Below, in pieces: positions 29,067 through 50,783 of a stretch of 64,000 nucleotides of DNA (position 1 is the stretch's first letter; the number at the start of each line of letters is the position of its first letter). This DNA is from Bacteroidota bacterium (GTDB taxonomy: Bacteria; Bacteroidota; Bacteroidia; Chitinophagales; Chitinophagaceae): the NCBI GenBank assembly GCA_026391435.1, contig JAPLEJ010000005.1, forward strand, positions 1-64,000, written 5' to 3'. Both the position numbers and the translations under genes were made by a program. The notes under the pieces were generated by a model. The model did no database searches. It was not told where the DNA came from and worked only from the letters and a program-made list of their open reading frames with translations.

Positions 29067-29945
29067 TTAAGATTCAATCATATCATATAAATGATGAATG
29101 AGCCCATCGGCTAGCCCAATCTTGGGCACATGAATTTCTGTGATATCAGACCATTTACAAATTGCATTGTAAATACTGAGGGCAGGCACAATCACCTCGG
29201 CTCTATCTTCCTTTATGGTGTATTTACGCATTCTCTCATCAATCGATAGAGGCTCCATTTCCTTATAAATATCTTTCATATTGTCATAGGTCATAGATTT
29301 GCCCGACTTAGATCCGCTTAATGAGAATAATTTATTAATATTTCCGCCTGAACCTATCCCTATTATATTACCATATTTTTTGGATAGTTCTTTTAAGGTT
29401 TCTTTCATTTCATCCCATGTTTCATCCTTCACTTTTTTTGTTAGAATGCGAACAGTTCCAATATTGAATGATTTTTGTAGAACCACATTTGATTTATGGT
29501 ATAATGTAAGCTCTGTACTTCCGCCTCCTACATCAATATATAAGTAGCTTTTATCCTTATCAAGTAATTCAGCAATATGATTTTCATAAATAATTTCAGC
29601 CTCTAGCTCACCTGTAATCACTTCAATTTCAATACTGGTTTCTGATTTGATTTCTTTAATGACTTCCTTTGCATTTTCTGCATCCCTCATTGCACTTGTA
29701 GCACAGGCCATGTAATGATCTACTTCGTATACTTTCATTAAGTTACTGAATGCCTTAATGGTATTTATTAACATCTTCTTTTTTTGACTACCAATGACTC
29801 CTTTTTCGAATACATCAAAACCTAAGCGAACTGGAATTCTTAAAAGATTTAATTTATTAAATTCTACTTCTTTCCCTTTTTTAACTACTTCACATATGAG
29901 TAATCTAACCGCGTTACTTCCAATATCTATAGCTGCGAGTATCAA
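29067..29945 (-). CDS. ppx: Exopolyphosphatase/GppA family phosphatase
   Basis: A 292-residue protein of the actin-like ATPase fold: AAIDIGSNAVRLL at the start, ACATSAMRDAENAKE, YIDVGGGSTELTLY, and IGSGGNINKL. It is the short form with only the two core domains (Escherichia coli Ppx is about 510 residues). It hydrolyses polyphosphate or pppGpp. It follows ppk1 by 6 bp, so polyphosphate synthesis and breakdown share one operon. Confidence 0.92.
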   Translation of the reverse strand: MILAAIDIGSNAVRLLICEVVKKGKEVEFNKLNLLRIPVRLGFDVFEKGVIGSQKKKMLINTIKAFSNLMKVYEVDHYMACATSAMRDAENAKEVIKEIKSETSIEIEVITGELEAEIIYENHIAELLDKDKSYLYIDVGGGSTELTLYHKSNVVLQKSFNIGTVRILTKKVKDETWDEMKETLKELSKKYGNIIGIGSGGNINKLFSLSGSKSGKSMTYDNMKDIYKEMEPLSIDERMRKYTIKEDRAEVIVPALSIYNAICKWSDITEIHVPKIGLADGLIHHLYDMIES

Positions 29946-29951
29946 TTTGTT

Positions 29952-32015
29952 TTATTTTTTTCCAAGTAAAAATTGGTAAGTTTCTACTTGTGATTTGCAA
30001 TGCTTTTTCCCAATGGAAGATACATAATTATTGTTTAAATCTCCGTTCAAAATTCTAGCTTTTTGATTATCCTTTAATTGAATATTTATTATTTCAATTA
30101 GTTCCTTTTTTAATTGAATATCTAATATAGGGGTAGCAACCTCAATTCTGTGATCTAAATTTCGTACCATCCAGTCAGCACTTGAAATATATACTTTTTC
30201 GTTCCCTTTATTGTGAAATACCATCACCCTAGCATGTTCAAGGTATTGATCTACTATACTTATTGCATTTAGCTTATCATTCAACTTGTCGGTCCCTTTT
30301 TTTAAAGTAAGTATACCTCTAATAATTAAATGCACTTCAACTCCTGCTTTAATTGCCTTATATAAATGATCTATTAGCAAATGGTCACTTATTGAATTTG
30401 ACTTAATAATAATTTTTGCAATTTTTCCTTGTTTTGCAAATTTGATTTCGTTATTAATTAATTGTATAATAGAATTCCTCATGTTAATAGGGGATATTAA
30501 CAAATTACTTGTTTTGCCTATAGGTTTATCACCTAATTGCCAGCTTTCCAAATAGGCAAATACCTTATTCAATTCTATCAATAGGGGCCTTGACGCAGTC
30601 AATAAACAATGATCAGCGTATATTTTTGCTGTTTGCTCATTTAAATTCCCAGTACTAATAAATCCATACTGAATTAATTTTTTTTCTTGCCTTTTTTGAA
30701 TAACACAAATTTTTGCATGCACTTTTACATTGGGTATGCCTACTAAAACTTTGATACCTTCCTCCTCCATCATTGTTTTCCATTCAAGATTGGCTTCTTC
30801 ATCAAACCTTGCTTTTAATTCTAAAAATACAGTTACATTTTTACCATTTCGTGCTGCATTAATTAAGGCATTGATGACTTTTGAATTACTAGCTAAACGG
30901 TAAGCAGTAATTTTAATTGATACCACATCATCATCCATAGCTGCCTCTCTTAACATATCAATCACGGGGTCAAAACTATGATATGGGAAATGTAATAAAA
31001 TATCTTTTTGTAATATTACTTCGGATACTTGGAATTTTTTTCTGAATGCAGGATGTGAAAATGGTTTCGGTCTTTCTTGTTTTTCAATAAGTACATCTGG
31101 GAAATCCATGAAATGTCTAAAGTTGTGAATTTGTCCTCCTGGAATAATACTACTTTTTCTGCTGAGGTGTAATTTTTGAATTAAAAATTCGAGTAATTCC
31201 GAATTCATATCCTTGTCGTATACAAATCTTACTGGCTTTCCTTTTCTTCTGTTTTTAATTCCTTTTGAAATTTTATCTACAAAATTCAAACCCACTTCTT
31301 GATCTAAGTCAATTTCGGCATCTTTGGTAATTTTAAATACATGTGCATCAAATTTGTTAAACTTAAAATGCGAAAAAATAATAGGCAAGTTAAACTTTAC
31401 AATATCTTCTAATAAAATAATGGATTTAGTGCCAGGACTCGAAGGCAGAATGACAAAGCGGCCAATCGATTTTGAGGGTATTTCAATTAAGGAGAACTTT
31501 TCATGATAAGCATCCTGTTTATTTCTCATTACAATTGCTAAATACAAACTTTTATCTCTTAAATAGGGAAGTTCGGGTAAGTTTTCAATCATTAAGGGTA
31601 TAATATAAGGTCGCACTACATTATCAAAATAGTCCCTTACGAATTCCTTTTGTTCAGTATTTAATTTTCTTTCATTTATAATTAAAACCTTACGCTTAAT
31701 TAATTCCTTATTGATATTTGTCCAAATACGTGCAAATTCACTTTGTTGCTTTAATACCACTCTTTGTATTTCGTCTAAAATTAATTGCGGAGAATCAATA
31801 ACATCGATATTCGTACTCTTCTTTTTATCTATAAATTCGACCATCCTTTTTAAGGTAGCTACTCTAACTCTAAAAAATTCGTCTAGGTTACTTGAGAATA
31901 TTCCCAAAAAACGAATTCTGTCCTTTAAATTTACATTCTTATCATTTGCCTCTTGTAATACTCTAGCATTAAAACTGAGCCAGCTAATATCTCTAGGTAT
32001 AAATTCGTGTTTCAT
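29952..32015 (-). CDS. ppk1: Polyphosphate kinase 1
   Basis: A 687-residue PPK1 with N-terminal (RDISWLSFNARVLQEA), middle and two C-terminal domains. The phosphohistidine is probably His about 432 in VKVHAKICVI; a second conserved block is SSADWMVRNLDHRIEV, and FHYPYxSFD-type FPYHSFDPV is also present. It makes polyphosphate from ATP. On the minus strand TAAATTTG (complement of 32032-32039) is a -7 element. The divergent intergenic region carries a weak 11-bp repeat resembling the array at 45782-45825. Confidence 0.95.
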   Translation of the reverse strand: MKHEFIPRDISWLSFNARVLQEANDKNVNLKDRIRFLGIFSSNLDEFFRVRVATLKRMVEFIDKKKSTNIDVIDSPQLILDEIQRVVLKQQSEFARIWTNINKELIKRKVLIINERKLNTEQKEFVRDYFDNVVRPYIIPLMIENLPELPYLRDKSLYLAIVMRNKQDAYHEKFSLIEIPSKSIGRFVILPSSPGTKSIILLEDIVKFNLPIIFSHFKFNKFDAHVFKITKDAEIDLDQEVGLNFVDKISKGIKNRRKGKPVRFVYDKDMNSELLEFLIQKLHLSRKSSIIPGGQIHNFRHFMDFPDVLIEKQERPKPFSHPAFRKKFQVSEVILQKDILLHFPYHSFDPVIDMLREAAMDDDVVSIKITAYRLASNSKVINALINAARNGKNVTVFLELKARFDEEANLEWKTMMEEEGIKVLVGIPNVKVHAKICVIQKRQEKKLIQYGFISTGNLNEQTAKIYADHCLLTASRPLLIELNKVFAYLESWQLGDKPIGKTSNLLISPINMRNSIIQLINNEIKFAKQGKIAKIIIKSNSISDHLLIDHLYKAIKAGVEVHLIIRGILTLKKGTDKLNDKLNAISIVDQYLEHARVMVFHNKGNEKVYISSADWMVRNLDHRIEVATPILDIQLKKELIEIINIQLKDNQKARILNGDLNNNYVSSIGKKHCKSQVETYQFLLGKK

Positions 32016-32147
32016 AATCAGTATTGTTATACAAATTTACTTAAACTAAGATTAAGTAATATTCTGTTCATAATTTATTAATATTAAAGTAACAGTGGGG
32101 ACATGTTGAAGTTACCTACAACAGCGTTCTTTATGTAAATTATACCT

Positions 32148-32990
32148 ATGGACAAAAGACCAATGGAGATTTGTATAGTAAGTGACCTTCATTTAGGCAC
32201 TTTTGGATGCCAGGCCAAGGAAATACTACAATATTTAAAAAGTATTAAGCCTAAAACACTAATACTAAATGGAGATATTATAGATATCTGGCAGTTTAAT
32301 AAGCGCTATTTCCCAGCCAGCCATATGGCGGTGATCAAGCAAATTTTTAGTATGGCGAGTAAGGATACAAAAGTGATTTACATAACAGGTAATCATGACG
32401 AAGCTTTACGAAAATATGCAGATTTTGAAATGGGTAATATTCAATTAACCGATAAAATTGTTTTTGAAATCAACGGTGAAAAAAATTGGGTATTCCATGG
32501 TGATGTATTTGATAGAACAACCAAAGGCAGTGCTAAATTTTTAGCTAAACTAGGAGGCTATGGGTATGATTTATTAATTGTTATTAATAGTGTATTGAAT
32601 TGGGCAAGGAAATTGTTAGGAAAAGAAAAGATGAGTTTTAGCAAAAGCGTCAAAAATGGAGTTAAAAAAGCGGTGTCCTGGATCAATAACTTTGAACAAA
32701 CTGCTGCAGAATTAGCTATTGAAAATGGGTATCAGTATGTTATTTGTGGTCATATTCATCAACCACAGCAAAGACTTGTCACTACCGATAAAGGTAGTGT
32801 CACTTATTTAAATAGTGGCGATTGGATTGAAAATTTAACTTCATTGGAATATTATAATAATGCATGGAGTTTATATCATTATGATCCAAAACAATTTATA
32901 CAGGAGGCAGGGACTTCAAATAAAATTATCAATTTAAGAGAAGAACTTACGGTGATTACTAAAGAGGTTGCCTTTCAAGTATCAATGTAA
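32148..32990 (+). CDS. LpxH-like UDP-2,3-diacylglucosamine diphosphatase-family phosphoesterase
   Basis: A 280-residue calcineurin-fold enzyme: SDLHLGTFG, NGDIIDIWQ, TGNHDE, HGDVFD, and CGHIHQP are its metal motifs. The long insertion (LNWARKLLGKEKMSFSKSVK) is seen in the LpxH/UDP-diacylglucosamine family of Bacteroidota. Its stop codon overlaps the start of the glycosyltransferase gene (TAATG), so both probably act in one pathway of envelope lipid or glycolipid metabolism. Confidence 0.82.
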   Translation: MDKRPMEICIVSDLHLGTFGCQAKEILQYLKSIKPKTLILNGDIIDIWQFNKRYFPASHMAVIKQIFSMASKDTKVIYITGNHDEALRKYADFEMGNIQLTDKIVFEINGEKNWVFHGDVFDRTTKGSAKFLAKLGGYGYDLLIVINSVLNWARKLLGKEKMSFSKSVKNGVKKAVSWINNFEQTAAELAIENGYQYVICGHIHQPQQRLVTTDKGSVTYLNSGDWIENLTSLEYYNNAWSLYHYDPKQFIQEAGTSNKIINLREELTVITKEVAFQVSM

Positions 32991-33979
32991 TGAAAATATT
33001 TTATGCCATACAAGGAACTGGGAATGGCCATTTAAGTAGGGCGGAACAATTATATCCCTATCTAAAAAAATATGGGGATGTTGACTTTTTTTTAAGCGGT
33101 TCAAACACACAGTTAAATACCAATCTTCCTATTAAGTATAAAAGTCATGGTATTAGTCTGCATTACAAAAATACGGGCGGCATGGATTATGCTAAAATAG
33201 CAAAATCCATATCATTTAATTTATATAAGGATGCTAAACGTCTTCCGATTGATCATTATGATTTAGTCATTAACGACTTTGAATTTATCACTTCACTTGC
33301 TTGCTCCATTAAAAACAAAAAAAGCATACAATTTGGACATCAAGCGAGTTTCCAAAGTAAACTTACGCCTAGGTCTAAATCTATTAACCCAATTGGAAAA
33401 TTAGTACTTGAAAATTTTGTAAAAAGTACTTCTTTTATAGGCTTACATTTTGAATCCTACGATCAAAATATTTATAATCCTATTATCAAAGAAGATATTA
33501 TAACGGCTAATAAAATCAATGACGGCCATATCACTGTTTATTTACCTCAATATACTGACGAATTAATAACACCATTTTTACATCAGCAACCCAAATTTCA
33601 TTTCGAAGTGTTTACAAAACAAGTAACTCAAATTACGAATTCAAAAAATATTACTTTCTTCCCTATTAATAGCGCCTCTTTTACAAATAGTTTAATTAGG
33701 TGTTATGGTATTATGACTGCTGGCGGTTTTGAAACCCCAGCGGAAGCCATGTATTTAAATAAGAAAGTATTAAGTATCCCTATCTTAAATCATTTTGAAC
33801 AAGAATGTAATGCCGAAGCTTTAAAAAAGATGGGAATATTAGTTTTAAAAAAATTAGATGATACTTTTCATAATCATTTCAAAAATTGGATTGATCATGA
33901 TACACCCAAATCCTTAACATTAACTCATTCGACTAAAGATATTGTAGATATTTTAATGCAAAATGAAATTGCACAATAA
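32990..33979 (+). CDS. GT-B-like glycosyltransferase family protein
   Basis: A 329-residue protein with the N-terminal signature GTGNGHLSRAEQL and a C-terminal nucleotide-sugar region (IMTAGGFETPAEAMYLNKKVLSIPILNHFEQECNAEAL), as in MurG-like transferases. It belongs to the group found beside LpxH-like phosphatases in Bacteroidota. Acceptor and donor are unknown. Start ATG overlaps the previous stop by one base. Confidence 0.8.
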   Translation: MKIFYAIQGTGNGHLSRAEQLYPYLKKYGDVDFFLSGSNTQLNTNLPIKYKSHGISLHYKNTGGMDYAKIAKSISFNLYKDAKRLPIDHYDLVINDFEFITSLACSIKNKKSIQFGHQASFQSKLTPRSKSINPIGKLVLENFVKSTSFIGLHFESYDQNIYNPIIKEDIITANKINDGHITVYLPQYTDELITPFLHQQPKFHFEVFTKQVTQITNSKNITFFPINSASFTNSLIRCYGIMTAGGFETPAEAMYLNKKVLSIPILNHFEQECNAEALKKMGILVLKKLDDTFHNHFKNWIDHDTPKSLTLTHSTKDIVDILMQNEIAQ

Positions 33980-45781: not shown

Positions 45782-45838
45782 GTTAATATTATGTTCATAT
45801 TGAGTTAACATTTGGGTAACATTAGAGTCTAATATTTG
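45782..45838 (+). promoter_or_regulatory. Four tandem 11-bp units (candidate Pho-box array) and -7-like element
   Basis: Four adjacent 11-mers read GTTAATATTAT (45782-45792), GTTCATATTGA (45793-45803), GTTAACATTTG (45804-45814) and GGTAACATTAG (45815-45825). The last two give TAACATT-N4-TAACATT. PhoB-type response regulators bind 7-bp direct repeats with 4-bp spacers, i.e. an 11-bp period. Four bases later comes TAATATTTG (45830-45838), close to the -7 consensus. The array would replace the -33 element. PhoB as the factor is an inference. Confidence 0.6.
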
Positions 45839-45857
45839 CGGTATAAATAATTACATC

Positions 45858-48620
45858 GTGAAAAGGTTACTACTCTTAATTTGTTTTATTGTTACTGCAT
45901 TCATAGCAAACGCCCAAAAAGCTAAATTATCTGGTAAAGTTACAAGTGCCAGAAATGAATCTTTAATTGGTGTTACTATTACTTTAAAATCAGACAGAAG
46001 CCAAGTCACTAAAACAGATGTTGAAGGAAGATATAGTTTCAATATTGATGTCAATAAAAAGTATAGTGTTGCTTTATCCTATGTTGGATTTAAGGCGAAA
46101 ACTATTGAAAATATTAATGCTACTCAGTCAGGCGAAGAAGTTACTTTGGATATCTTATTAGAAGAGTCAGGAGCAAAATTAGCTGATGTAACAGTGAGTG
46201 CCAATAGATCGAGCAATAAAGGCGCTACCGATAACGCTTTAATTTCATATCAAAAAAATACCAATACAGTTGCTTCAGTTATTTCAGCAGAATCTATAAG
46301 ACGTAGCCCAGATAGAAACACAGCTGAAATTTTAAAAAGAACAACTGGTACTTCAATTCAAGAAGGAAAGTATATTATAGTTAGAGGTTTAGCAGATAGA
46401 TATAATCAAGCTATGTTAAATGGTATTTTATTAACAAGTACTGAGCCTGATCGTAAAACATTTTCTTTTGATTTATTCCCGGCTCAAATCATTGATAATA
46501 TCATTATTAACAAAGCATTTGTACCAGAATTGCCAGGAGAGTGGGCGGGTGGTTTAATTCAAGTAAACACAAAAGACATCCCTACTAAAAACTTTTTGAA
46601 CATACAAATAGCAACTACTTATAATACTCAATCCACTGGAAAAGATTTCTTCAAAGACAAAGGTGGTAAAACTGATTGGTATGGTATAGATGATGGAACA
46701 AGATCCTTGCCAACAGGTTATACCACTAAGTCTAATTTTGATACCTCTAATATTGCGTTTAAAACTTCGTTAGGAAAAACGATGTCAAACCATTGGGTGC
46801 CTGTTAAATCTGTGGCATCTCCGAACTATTCATTTCAATTGAATGGTGGTTTTGCAAGTACTTTATGGGGCAAGAAAATTGGCGGCATGATTGGTATTAA
46901 TTTTGCCGAAAATCAAAAAATTCAAGATAATTTAAATCAGCAAAATACTTTAGAGGCAAATAAATTTTCTACAATCTATAAGTATGATGATAAAAAATAC
47001 ATCACTGATATTAATATGGGAGCCATTGCCGGTTTCTCTATTTACTTGAATCCATTAAACAAGATCAGCTATAAGGCCATTGTAAACGTAAAATCTAATA
47101 ATTCCTTTACTCAAAGATATGGTAATGAGTATTCAAGAGGTGATTTGATGAAAGGGAATGAATTTACTTTTGCTCAAAACACTTTTTTTACTAATCAATT
47201 AAATGGAGAACATAGCTTAAATAGTAAGTTAAAATTAAATTGGTATGGCGCATTTAATGTTTTAGATAGCTATAGTCCAGATCAAAGAAGGTTATTATAT
47301 ACAAAAAGTGCTACAGGTTCTGATCCATATGTGCTGAATATTTCAAACTCTTTGTCGCAACAATCAGGAAGCCGTATTTTTCAAAGCTTAAATGATTATA
47401 TATATACAGGTGGTGGTGATTTAACTTATAAGTTAAAACAAAGCACCATTAAAGCTGGTTATCTTATTCAGGTAAAGGATCGTATTTATGACGCTGCTTT
47501 GTTTGCTAATTTCTTACCTAGAGACAACCCAGCTTTAAGAGCTTTACCAGCTGATGTGGTATTTGCACCTGAAAATTTTGGTAATGGCACAGACAATATG
47601 TTTGGTTTTGATGCCATCAAAGGACGTAATTTCAGATACATGGCAAACACCATTTTAAATGCGGGTTATTTGCAATTTGACAATAAAGTTTCAGAAAAAA
47701 TAAGAATGGTATGGGGTTTACGTGTTGAAAATTTTGATCAATTAGTAGGTAGTGTGAAAGTGTGGGATCCAAGACATACTTATTCTAAAGTAACAGACTA
47801 TTTACCTGGTGTAAATACCACTATAAAATTAAATCAAAATAGTAATTTAAGAATTACTGCTTCACAAACAGTGATTCGTCCAGAATTAAGAGAGTTGTCT
47901 TTTTTAAACATATTCGATTTTGAATTAAACGCATCTGTTCAAGGTAATCCTAGTTTAAAACGTACAAAAATTACAAATACAGATATTAGATACGAATTAT
48001 ATCCTGGATCTGGAGAAGTTTTTACAGCAGGTGTTTTTTATAAAAATTTCGAAAATGCAATTGAACAAATTTTTAGTGAAGGTTCTGGAGGTGCAAGTAC
48101 TTTCTCCTACCAAAATGCAAAAAATGCGATTACATATGGTATAGAATTAGAAGCTAGAAAAAAATTAAACAAATTCTTTACTTTCCAAGCAAACGCATCT
48201 TTGATCAATAGTAAAATTAAAGATGAGAATTTGAAATTGGAGCGCCAATTACAAGGACAGTCCCCTTATTTAGTAAACGTTGGATTGTTATACGATGTGG
48301 TTGATAAAGGGTTTAATGCTACTTTATTATTTAACCAAATTGGAGAGCGTATTTATTTAGTGGGTGATATGCAAGCGGGTTCAGCTTCTCCAGATATTTA
48401 TGAAGCGCCACGTTCTTTAGTTGATTTCCAAATGAGTAAAAAAATAATGAAAAATAAAGCAGAAATTAAATTCACTGCGTCAGATATATTAAATCAAGAA
48501 CAAATTTTTTATCAAAATTTAAATGCGAATACTCCTAAATACGAAAAAGGTGTTGACGTAATTCGTTTCTCTAGAAAATTCGGAACCTCTTTCGGAATTT
48601 CCTTTAACTATTCACTATAA
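45858..48620 (+). CDS. TonB-dependent receptor (substrate unknown)
   Basis: A 920-residue outer-membrane receptor: signal peptide to about residue 20 (IANAQ), a carboxypeptidase-like regulatory domain at about 23-110, a plug (VASVISAESIRRSPDRNTAEILKR; YIIVRGLADRYNQAMLNG) and a barrel ending in FGISFNYSL. The start codon is GTG. The 11-bp repeat array just upstream and the lipoprotein just downstream hint at starvation-controlled uptake, possibly of a phosphorus compound; that is an inference. Confidence 0.93.
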   Translation: MKRLLLLICFIVTAFIANAQKAKLSGKVTSARNESLIGVTITLKSDRSQVTKTDVEGRYSFNIDVNKKYSVALSYVGFKAKTIENINATQSGEEVTLDILLEESGAKLADVTVSANRSSNKGATDNALISYQKNTNTVASVISAESIRRSPDRNTAEILKRTTGTSIQEGKYIIVRGLADRYNQAMLNGILLTSTEPDRKTFSFDLFPAQIIDNIIINKAFVPELPGEWAGGLIQVNTKDIPTKNFLNIQIATTYNTQSTGKDFFKDKGGKTDWYGIDDGTRSLPTGYTTKSNFDTSNIAFKTSLGKTMSNHWVPVKSVASPNYSFQLNGGFASTLWGKKIGGMIGINFAENQKIQDNLNQQNTLEANKFSTIYKYDDKKYITDINMGAIAGFSIYLNPLNKISYKAIVNVKSNNSFTQRYGNEYSRGDLMKGNEFTFAQNTFFTNQLNGEHSLNSKLKLNWYGAFNVLDSYSPDQRRLLYTKSATGSDPYVLNISNSLSQQSGSRIFQSLNDYIYTGGGDLTYKLKQSTIKAGYLIQVKDRIYDAALFANFLPRDNPALRALPADVVFAPENFGNGTDNMFGFDAIKGRNFRYMANTILNAGYLQFDNKVSEKIRMVWGLRVENFDQLVGSVKVWDPRHTYSKVTDYLPGVNTTIKLNQNSNLRITASQTVIRPELRELSFLNIFDFELNASVQGNPSLKRTKITNTDIRYELYPGSGEVFTAGVFYKNFENAIEQIFSEGSGGASTFSYQNAKNAITYGIELEARKKLNKFFTFQANASLINSKIKDENLKLERQLQGQSPYLVNVGLLYDVVDKGFNATLLFNQIGERIYLVGDMQAGSASPDIYEAPRSLVDFQMSKKIMKNKAEIKFTASDILNQEQIFYQNLNANTPKYEKGVDVIRFSRKFGTSFGISFNYSL

Positions 48621-50226: not shown

Positions 50227-50333
50227 ATGCGTTGGATTTTACCTGGATGCTTAATAATTTATTCATATTCCATTAACAATTTAGCAATATTTATTTATGA
50301 CATTTATGTTAATCACCCTTTGTATTGTTTAAT

Positions 50334-50783
50334 ATGACTAAGTCATTTCATTTTAATATTCGAAAAGCACGGTTGAATGATGTAATGCATTATCAAGAAG
50401 TGGTTAGTTTGCATTTAAATAAAACATGGAATGTAATGGATTTTGATGAATTTTATAAGCAAAAATTAAAGAGTAAGGAGTATTCTTTTTTAATAATGGA
50501 GGATGAAGAAAAAAAAGTAGCAGGGGGTGTTATACTGCAGGATCGACATACATTTTTAGATAAATTTTCTTTTTTAGAAATACAGACGTTTTTTGTCGCA
50601 CCCAAGTATCGAAAATTAAACGCTGCTGACTTTTTATATGAAGCTATTGTTGCAACAGCTGTTGACAAAAAGGTTTTCAAAATACAGGTTGGATGTTATA
50701 TCAATTCAACGCTCAATCAAAATTTTTATACAAAACGTGGATTTAAAGTACACAAAAAATTGTATACGAAGGATTTGTATTAA
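50334..50783 (+). CDS. GNAT acetyltransferase
   Basis: A 149-residue GNAT domain: KVAGGVILQDRH, LEIQTFFVAPKYRKLNAADFLYEAIV (acetyl-CoA-binding loop) and the C-terminal NQNFYTKRGFKVHKKLY. ATG 50334 is preferred to an in-frame TTG three codons upstream. Acceptor unknown. The gene converges on ald. Confidence 0.78.
   Translation: MTKSFHFNIRKARLNDVMHYQEVVSLHLNKTWNVMDFDEFYKQKLKSKEYSFLIMEDEEKKVAGGVILQDRHTFLDKFSFLEIQTFFVAPKYRKLNAADFLYEAIVATAVDKKVFKIQVGCYINSTLNQNFYTKRGFKVHKKLYTKDLY

Follow-up and report, generated by a model that had tools for sequence, protein, structure and literature searches.

Four tandem 11-bp repeats upstream of a TonB-dependent receptor gene very probably serve as a binding site for a phosphate-starvation regulator

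The stretch of DNA under study ("the window") comprises 64,000 nt of contig JAPLEJ010000005.1 from a member of the genus Sediminibacterium (Chitinophagaceae; assembly GCA_026391435.1), and its relevant features are listed in Table 1. A gene for a TonB-dependent receptor is followed by a lipoprotein gene, and upstream of the receptor lie four tandem units, GTTAATATTAT, GTTCATATTGA, GTTAACATTTG and GGTAACATTAG, in exact 11-bp phase. A 4-nt spacer, AGTC, separates the array from a -7-like element, TAATATTTGC, so that the array ends 9 nt before TTTG. The Bacteroidota -7 consensus is TAnnTTTG; the element in the window, TA-n3-TTTG, is one base longer. A sequence-only reading of the window had described four phased repeats in front of a TonB receptor, ending 4 nt before a -7-like element, and both features are indeed present.

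Table 1. Coordinates of the features of the window that are discussed in the text.
Feature	Coordinates	Strand	Basis and remarks
Ppx/GppA-family gene, after ppk1	29067-29945		
Polyphosphate kinase Ppk1	29952-32015	-	Divergent from PlcP-like gene; array-bearing intergenic region common to both
Second, weaker four-unit array	32055-32098	+	AGTAATATTCT GTTCATAATTT ATTAATATTAA AGTAACAGTGG; between ppk1 and PlcP-like gene
PlcP-like metallophosphoesterase	32148-32990	+	PF12850/PF00149; starts a probable lipid-remodelling operon
Glycosyltransferase adjoining PlcP-like gene	32990-33979	+	PF13528
Four tandem 11-bp units, putative Pho-box array	45782-45825	+	Repeat search, simulations, footprint
-7-like element	45830-45839	+	TTTG at 45835-45838; read from sequence
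TonB-dependent receptor, 920 aa, GTG start	45858-48620	+	CarboxypepD_reg, Plug, OMP_b-brl_3
Lipoprotein, 502 aa	48664-50172	+	No Pfam or NCBIfam match
Third, weakest array	50250-50293	+	Matrix; before GNAT acetyltransferase gene (50325-50783)

The array had also been called the strongest regulatory array in the window. In a search of the 64-kb window for four-copy repeats with periods of 8 to 14, it came out on top with a score of 44, compared to 39 for the next independent repeat. The maxima in 200 simulated windows (first-order Markov) averaged 33.9 and did not exceed 40, so that none reached 44. A matrix was trained on the arrays of 16 relatives, with the window left out, and was used for the key scores in this work. 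With this matrix, the array scored 48.0, followed by arrays at 32055 (22.1) and 50250 (15.9), while the next independent place in the window scored 3.6 and the peak in 25 simulated windows was 8.9.

Relatives of the lipoprotein were present in 41 of 60 genomes, including that of the window itself, and 20 loci around such relatives were taken for promoter comparison. A receptor orthologue was found by tblastn at 18 of these (L061-L078) and none at L079, while that at L080 was distant (35% identity). Loci L070 and L074 were left out, since the contig end cuts the promoter. The 16 loci that remained, with a clear receptor orthologue and a promoter that could be read, all had the array, which started 65 to 99 nt upstream of the start codon used. 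At L080, which lies outside the genus, there was at most a weak array (four-unit score 6.3, using a matrix that included the window's own array). Among the 13 closest loci, window included, the mean column conservation of the array was 0.87, with 23 of 44 columns invariant, and that of the 14 nt on its 3' side was 0.88 (9/14 invariant), while the 60 nt on its 5' side had drifted to 0.52, with no invariant column. The part of the -7 region kept in relatives is mainly TTTG(C). In more distant relatives, the units are mostly GGTAACATT-like, and when the relatives' arrays were pooled, the unit read G[G/T]TAA[C/T]ATTNN. Not all arrays have four units: L075 has six, and about six tandem units are found in L096 and L109 as well.

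For arrays located with a matrix that included the window's own array, a script gave a distance to TTTG or TTTA of 9 nt in 16 of 17 cases; the 17th, L076, was overrun by the script and has the same 9 nt by reading. Such a fixed distance would fit a direct contact between a bound regulator, PhoB, and RNA polymerase. We considered the possibility that the array is a chance repetition without function, as might arise in a window that is 66% A+T. The failure of the simulations to reach its score, its conservation next to drifting upstream sequence and its fixed spacing make this exceedingly improbable.

The window thus holds direct repeats with the period of about 11 bp that is typical of a Pho box, at a constant distance from the core promoter, and the four units would leave room for two PhoB dimers. 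The canonical CTGTCAT unit is not matched by the array, which has the pooled unit instead. The box is therefore claimed here as a Bacteroidota-type variant and not as the proteobacterial box.

The second array in the window lies in the intergenic region of ppk1 and a PlcP-like gene. Thirty genus loci with the PlcP-like gene were fetched, six of which were dropped when the gene was missed by the start-codon rule, and the rest were scored with the matrix made without the window. A four-unit array was present in all 24 scored promoters, that of the window included, with a lowest score of 11.0 and a median of 22.75. The corresponding scores of 157 control upstream regions had a median of -23.9 and a 95th percentile of -8.2, and four of them reached 11.0. 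The four top controls, as identified with the matrix that included the window, were an internal start of the boxed receptor, the GNAT gene and two ppk1 starts, the latter because ppk1 shares the plcP intergenic region; these four are probably true sites. Published work describes the combination of PlcP and a glycosyltransferase as a lipid-remodelling unit and, for marine bacteria, putative Pho boxes (PMC4796936). Judging from its family and its neighbour, the gene in the window is probably a true PlcP in a lipid-remodelling operon, which would probably be under Pho control via the array at 32055; polyphosphate synthesis may perhaps be controlled via the same array. The third array had a counterpart only at L061 and at none of 11 other loci, when 350 nt after the lipoprotein gene were searched with the matrix that included the window's array.

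The same box was found in other Bacteroidota. In the best 80 named loci among the lipoprotein matches listed, 75 scanned positions scored at least 15, compared to none in base-shuffled copies (matrix including the window's array). With the matrix made without the window, a score of at least 15 at receptor-promoter distance was found in 23 of the 67 loci of this set that could be anchored, compared to 2 of 289 random stretches; the array was missing at this threshold from the other 44, and the remaining 13 of the 80 were too near a contig end to be scored. Leaving out four loci from the genus itself, two of which were training loci, the count was 19 of 63. The receptor promoter of L147 (Sediminibacterium ginsengisoli DSM 22335) scored 20.2 with this matrix. 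A same-type array (score 25.6) was also seen at the receptor promoter of L207, an Ignavibacteriaceae MAG, in which the lipoprotein homologue lies within a 960-aa protein.

Several of these loci place the array among phosphate genes. At L159, the lipoprotein gene is followed by an array, pstS, two permease genes, an ABC ATPase gene and phoU, with genes for a PhoR-like kinase and a PhoB-like regulator on the other strand, all of confirmed family. At L172 (Pontibacter populi), the genes divergent from the receptor are phoU, pst genes and one for Porin_O_P, the last with an array in its promoter; the porin, PstS and PhoU families are confirmed, and the remaining names were assigned by reading. At L222, the lipoprotein is followed by an array, one further gene, pst genes as identified by reading, and phoU, which is confirmed; the order at L146 (Ferruginibacter) is PiT (confirmed), DUF47 (by reading), array, Porin_O_P (confirmed), array, receptor and lipoprotein. 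A regulator-kinase pair is divergent from the receptor at the Chryseobacterium loci L161 and L163. The names PhoB and PhoR at L159 and L163 are those of the best or near-best NCBIfam matches, which fall under the curated cut-offs.

A DUF47 (PF01865) gene, the pitR of a pitR-pitA pair, was found in 51 of 61 genomes of the genus. That of the window's genome, confirmed by Pfam, is followed by a PiT transporter gene (by reading) and preceded by a two-unit box, GGTAACAATTTGGTAATATACC. The best-scoring 30 of 54 such matches were taken, which left out most of the phoB-linked copies described below; one locus (L141) was dropped, and the rest were scored with the matrix made without the window. The two-unit scores of these 29 loci, which are related and do not represent 29 independent cases, ranged from 8.9 to 26.5 (median 16.5). 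Twenty-five were above the 95th percentile of the 157 control upstream regions (9.8), and the other four, related to each other, fell just under it. In all 29, the distance from the box to the start of TTTG or TTTA is exactly 31 nt, which places the box 22 bp, or two helical turns, further from this element than in the receptor promoters. Regulation at pit may be of either sign: S. meliloti represses orfA-pit when starved of Pi (PMC3131613), while for a putative phosphate permease of B. fragilis a value of -52.2 is given in the same column as strongly negative values for the pst genes (PMC3547664), which we read as a lowered level in the phoB mutant.

A three-unit pattern matched 43 times, in 28 of the 61 genus genomes, compared to four matches for the reversed pattern. 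One or two matches per genome were read, with names assigned from open reading frames and a second, separate match in G070 left out. In all 28 genomes, the match that was read stands before a TonB-receptor, porin or lipoprotein gene (one cut by a contig end). The match precedes the receptor family described here in 22 of them, again with one cut by a contig end; in the other six it precedes Oar-like TonB receptors (three), another TonB receptor (one) or a distant homologue of the lipoprotein directly (one), or has a porin-like gene on one side and DUF47 on the other (G009). In the window's own genome, the array at 45782 is the only match at this stringency. Two loose two-unit scans of the same genome gave 81 and 18 matches, compared to 83 and 35, respectively, for the reversed pattern; there was thus no enrichment, the counts as such are uninformative, and several matches fall inside genes. 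By reading, those among the 18 that precede genes include the array at 45782 (three overlapping matches), DUF47-PiT (C49:25015) and the PlcP-like operon (C40:32056).

Also among these 18 are candidate boxes before an Oar-like TonB receptor (C12:29064, with TTTGC 31 nt downstream by reading), before another TonB receptor (C37:817) and, as two units, before a 103-aa open reading frame (C31:65446, with 9 nt to TTTG by reading). A two-unit box with one mismatch (C37:24209) is intergenic and precedes two open reading frames, the second of which resembles a phosphodiesterase/alkaline phosphatase by eye.

Matches near phosphate genes, which the sequence-only reading had expected of a Pho box, were thus found before DUF47-PiT in the window's genome and genus and before pstS and porin genes elsewhere. 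Together with the PlcP-like operon and the clusters of pstS or phosphate-selective porin genes that also contain phoU, this gene context supports the Pho-box reading.

No SusD-type lipoprotein (PF07980/PF14322) lies beside the receptor, and the lipoprotein that does had no Pfam match at E ≤ 0.001. Its AlphaFold model (mean pLDDT 86) has many short β-strands, and its matches in the PDB were mostly β-helix proteins, but weak (best E 5.5e-4, TM 0.16); only one of 365 matches had E ≤ 0.001, and no function was obtained from them. A parallel is found in Flavobacterium johnsoniae, where Fjoh_0543-0546 encode PhoR, PhoB, a TonB-dependent receptor and a lipoprotein denoted FII, and PlcP is Fjoh_4577; upon Pi depletion, Fjoh_0545 and Fjoh_0546, both in the PhoBR cluster, had fold changes of 8.02 and 9.91 (PMC8115612). 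The receptors have the same domains (PF07715/PF13715/PF14905) and are followed by a lipoprotein of β-helix class (IPR011050 in F. johnsoniae), and both Fjoh_4577 and the PlcP-like protein of the window are of PF12850. The two pairs agree in domains, gene order and fold class. The F. johnsoniae arrangement of regulator and kinase beside receptor and lipoprotein recurs at the Chryseobacterium loci L161 and L163, whereas in the window's genome the receptor pair lies apart from phoB-phoR. The passages of the F. johnsoniae account drawn on here give no sequence for a Pho box. By analogy with the induction of its F. johnsoniae counterpart, the pair most likely serves phosphorus scavenging at the outer membrane; that its substrate is a phosphorus compound is a guess.

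Uptake of iron or vitamins is the role of many TonB receptors that have been characterised, and the array could in principle be a box for a different starvation, such as that for iron, with a TonB receptor downstream by chance. The other boxed genes, however, are phosphate genes, and the matching F. johnsoniae pair responded to Pi; the same study describes tight repression of the phosphorus-responsive loci of unknown function when N or Fe was limiting (PMC8115612). We therefore regard an iron-type box as very unlikely.

The genome of the window has three OmpR-family regulators. One of them (L081, on contig C30) has the domains PF00072 and PF00486 and shares 60% identity with the regulator at L159 (the pst-phoU locus), compared to 32% and 28% for the other two; the histidine kinase adjacent to it is 57% identical to the L159 kinase. 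The genome thus contains a PhoB orthologue with an adjoining kinase. A close PhoB orthologue was found in 59 of the 61 genus genomes, using a cut set on the match list and counting one fragment, and in neither G080 (83% complete) nor G082 (64% complete). OmpR-family regulators generally bind 10-11-bp direct repeats, and the array might be bound by another of the three, either the RprY-like one (L083) or that at L082, in response to a different stress, its phosphate neighbourhood being coincidental. In keeping with this, no box with a score of at least 17 was seen at phoB-phoR itself in ten operon loci. On the other hand, the box is found repeatedly before DUF47-PiT, pstS, porin and PlcP-like genes, and some of the same clusters contain phoB-phoR-like genes, which makes another regulator unlikely. 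A chance repeat, an iron box and another OmpR-family regulator were accordingly rejected on the basis of simulations, conservation and phosphate-gene context.

We consider it highly probable that the array is a Bacteroidota-type Pho box through which PhoB activates the receptor and lipoprotein genes at low Pi, in a regulon that includes pitR-pitA and the PlcP-like operon. During phosphate starvation, the PhoR kinase would phosphorylate PhoB, the L081 regulator, which would then sit on the four repeats as a pair of dimers in tandem, where a -33 element would otherwise be. From this position, with 9 nt between the array and TTTG, PhoB would recruit RNA polymerase, leading to transcription of the receptor and lipoprotein, a module for phosphorus scavenging at the outer membrane of the same kind as Fjoh_0545/0546. 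The regulon would also comprise pitR(DUF47)-pitA, the PlcP-like/glycosyltransferase operon, with ppk1 divergent from it, and probably more TonB receptors.

The sequence-only reading had also expected matches at pst and phoU, which was true of other Bacteroidota and failed in the genus itself, where PhoU and, at its cut-off, PstC were not detected. PhoU (PF01895) was found in none of the 61 genus genomes, although the same search found it in 13 of 14 control genomes. PstC (TIGR02138), the one Pst component searched for across the genus, was over the cut-off in none of the 61, with weak matches below it in five. Classical Pst-PhoU sensing, which would entail both proteins, was thus not found across the genus. 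The window's assembly is 84% complete, so that absence there is weak evidence alone; the genus-wide result is stronger. The Na/Pi family PF02690 was over the cut-off in 13 of the 61 genomes, that of the window not among them.

Of the 50 genomes that have both genes, 18 have phoB in the same orientation as DUF47 and 1.2 to 1.9 kb upstream of it. The order phoB, phoR, DUF47, PiT, galE-like was seen in all ten of the 18 that were read (L276-L285, with L276 confirmed by Pfam), and no box with a score of at least 17 was found around phoB-phoR at any of the ten (matrix including the window's array). In the window's genome, the galE-like gene follows phoB-phoR directly and DUF47-PiT is located elsewhere with its own box, as if pitR-pitA had been lifted out of the operon. 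In S. aureus, PitR has been reported to restrain PhoPR, and its loss to raise PhoPR-dependent expression (PMC13170248). A PF01865 protein is paired with PitA in both cases, but in Sediminibacterium no PhoU-like family other than DUF47 was found, and the 18 genomes noted above have phoB a short way upstream of it. One reading, to which we give an even chance as a whole, is that the Sediminibacterium Pho regulon operates without Pst and PhoU, with PhoR reading phosphate via PitR-PitA alone. The ancestral order would be phoB-phoR-pitR-pitA-galE, from which pitR-pitA would have left in members of the window's type, and the separated pair, with its own box, would close a feedback loop. With the box 22 bp further upstream than in the receptor promoters, the sign of this loop may differ from theirs.

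The array can be compared with boxes described in other bacteria. The Bacillus-type PhoP box consists of TT[A/C/T]ACA repeats; it appears to share with the present box a TTAACA core every 11 bp, but occurs in Gram-positive promoters. The classical Pho box is made up of two CTGTCAT repeats with a 4-nt spacer (PMC3131613) and shares the 11-bp direct-repeat period, the phosphate genes downstream and an OmpR-family regulator; it differs in its unit, and the arrays described here have up to six units and a fixed spacing to the TTTG -7 element. A search of titles, abstracts and passages in the open-access literature, which leaves most subscription journals outside, found no definition of a Bacteroidota Pho box. 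The nearest is the core TTTAACA obtained by DAP-seq for PhoP of Riemerella anatipestifer (PMC9603813), a phosphate-type regulator of the same phylum that resembles the present case by type and core motif; the passages of that account drawn on here contain no 11-bp array at a fixed -7 spacing.

Units of G[G/T]TAA[C/T]ATTNN placed 9 nt before TTTG thus provide a usable definition of a Bacteroidota Pho box, which could let phosphate regulons be read from genomes across the phylum. The finding ties an uncharacterised family of TonB receptors and lipoproteins to phosphorus starvation. If PhoR senses phosphate in Sediminibacterium, then it does so without PhoU and, judging by PstC, without Pst, and the genus would thus allow the Staphylococcus model of PitR to be examined in the absence of both.
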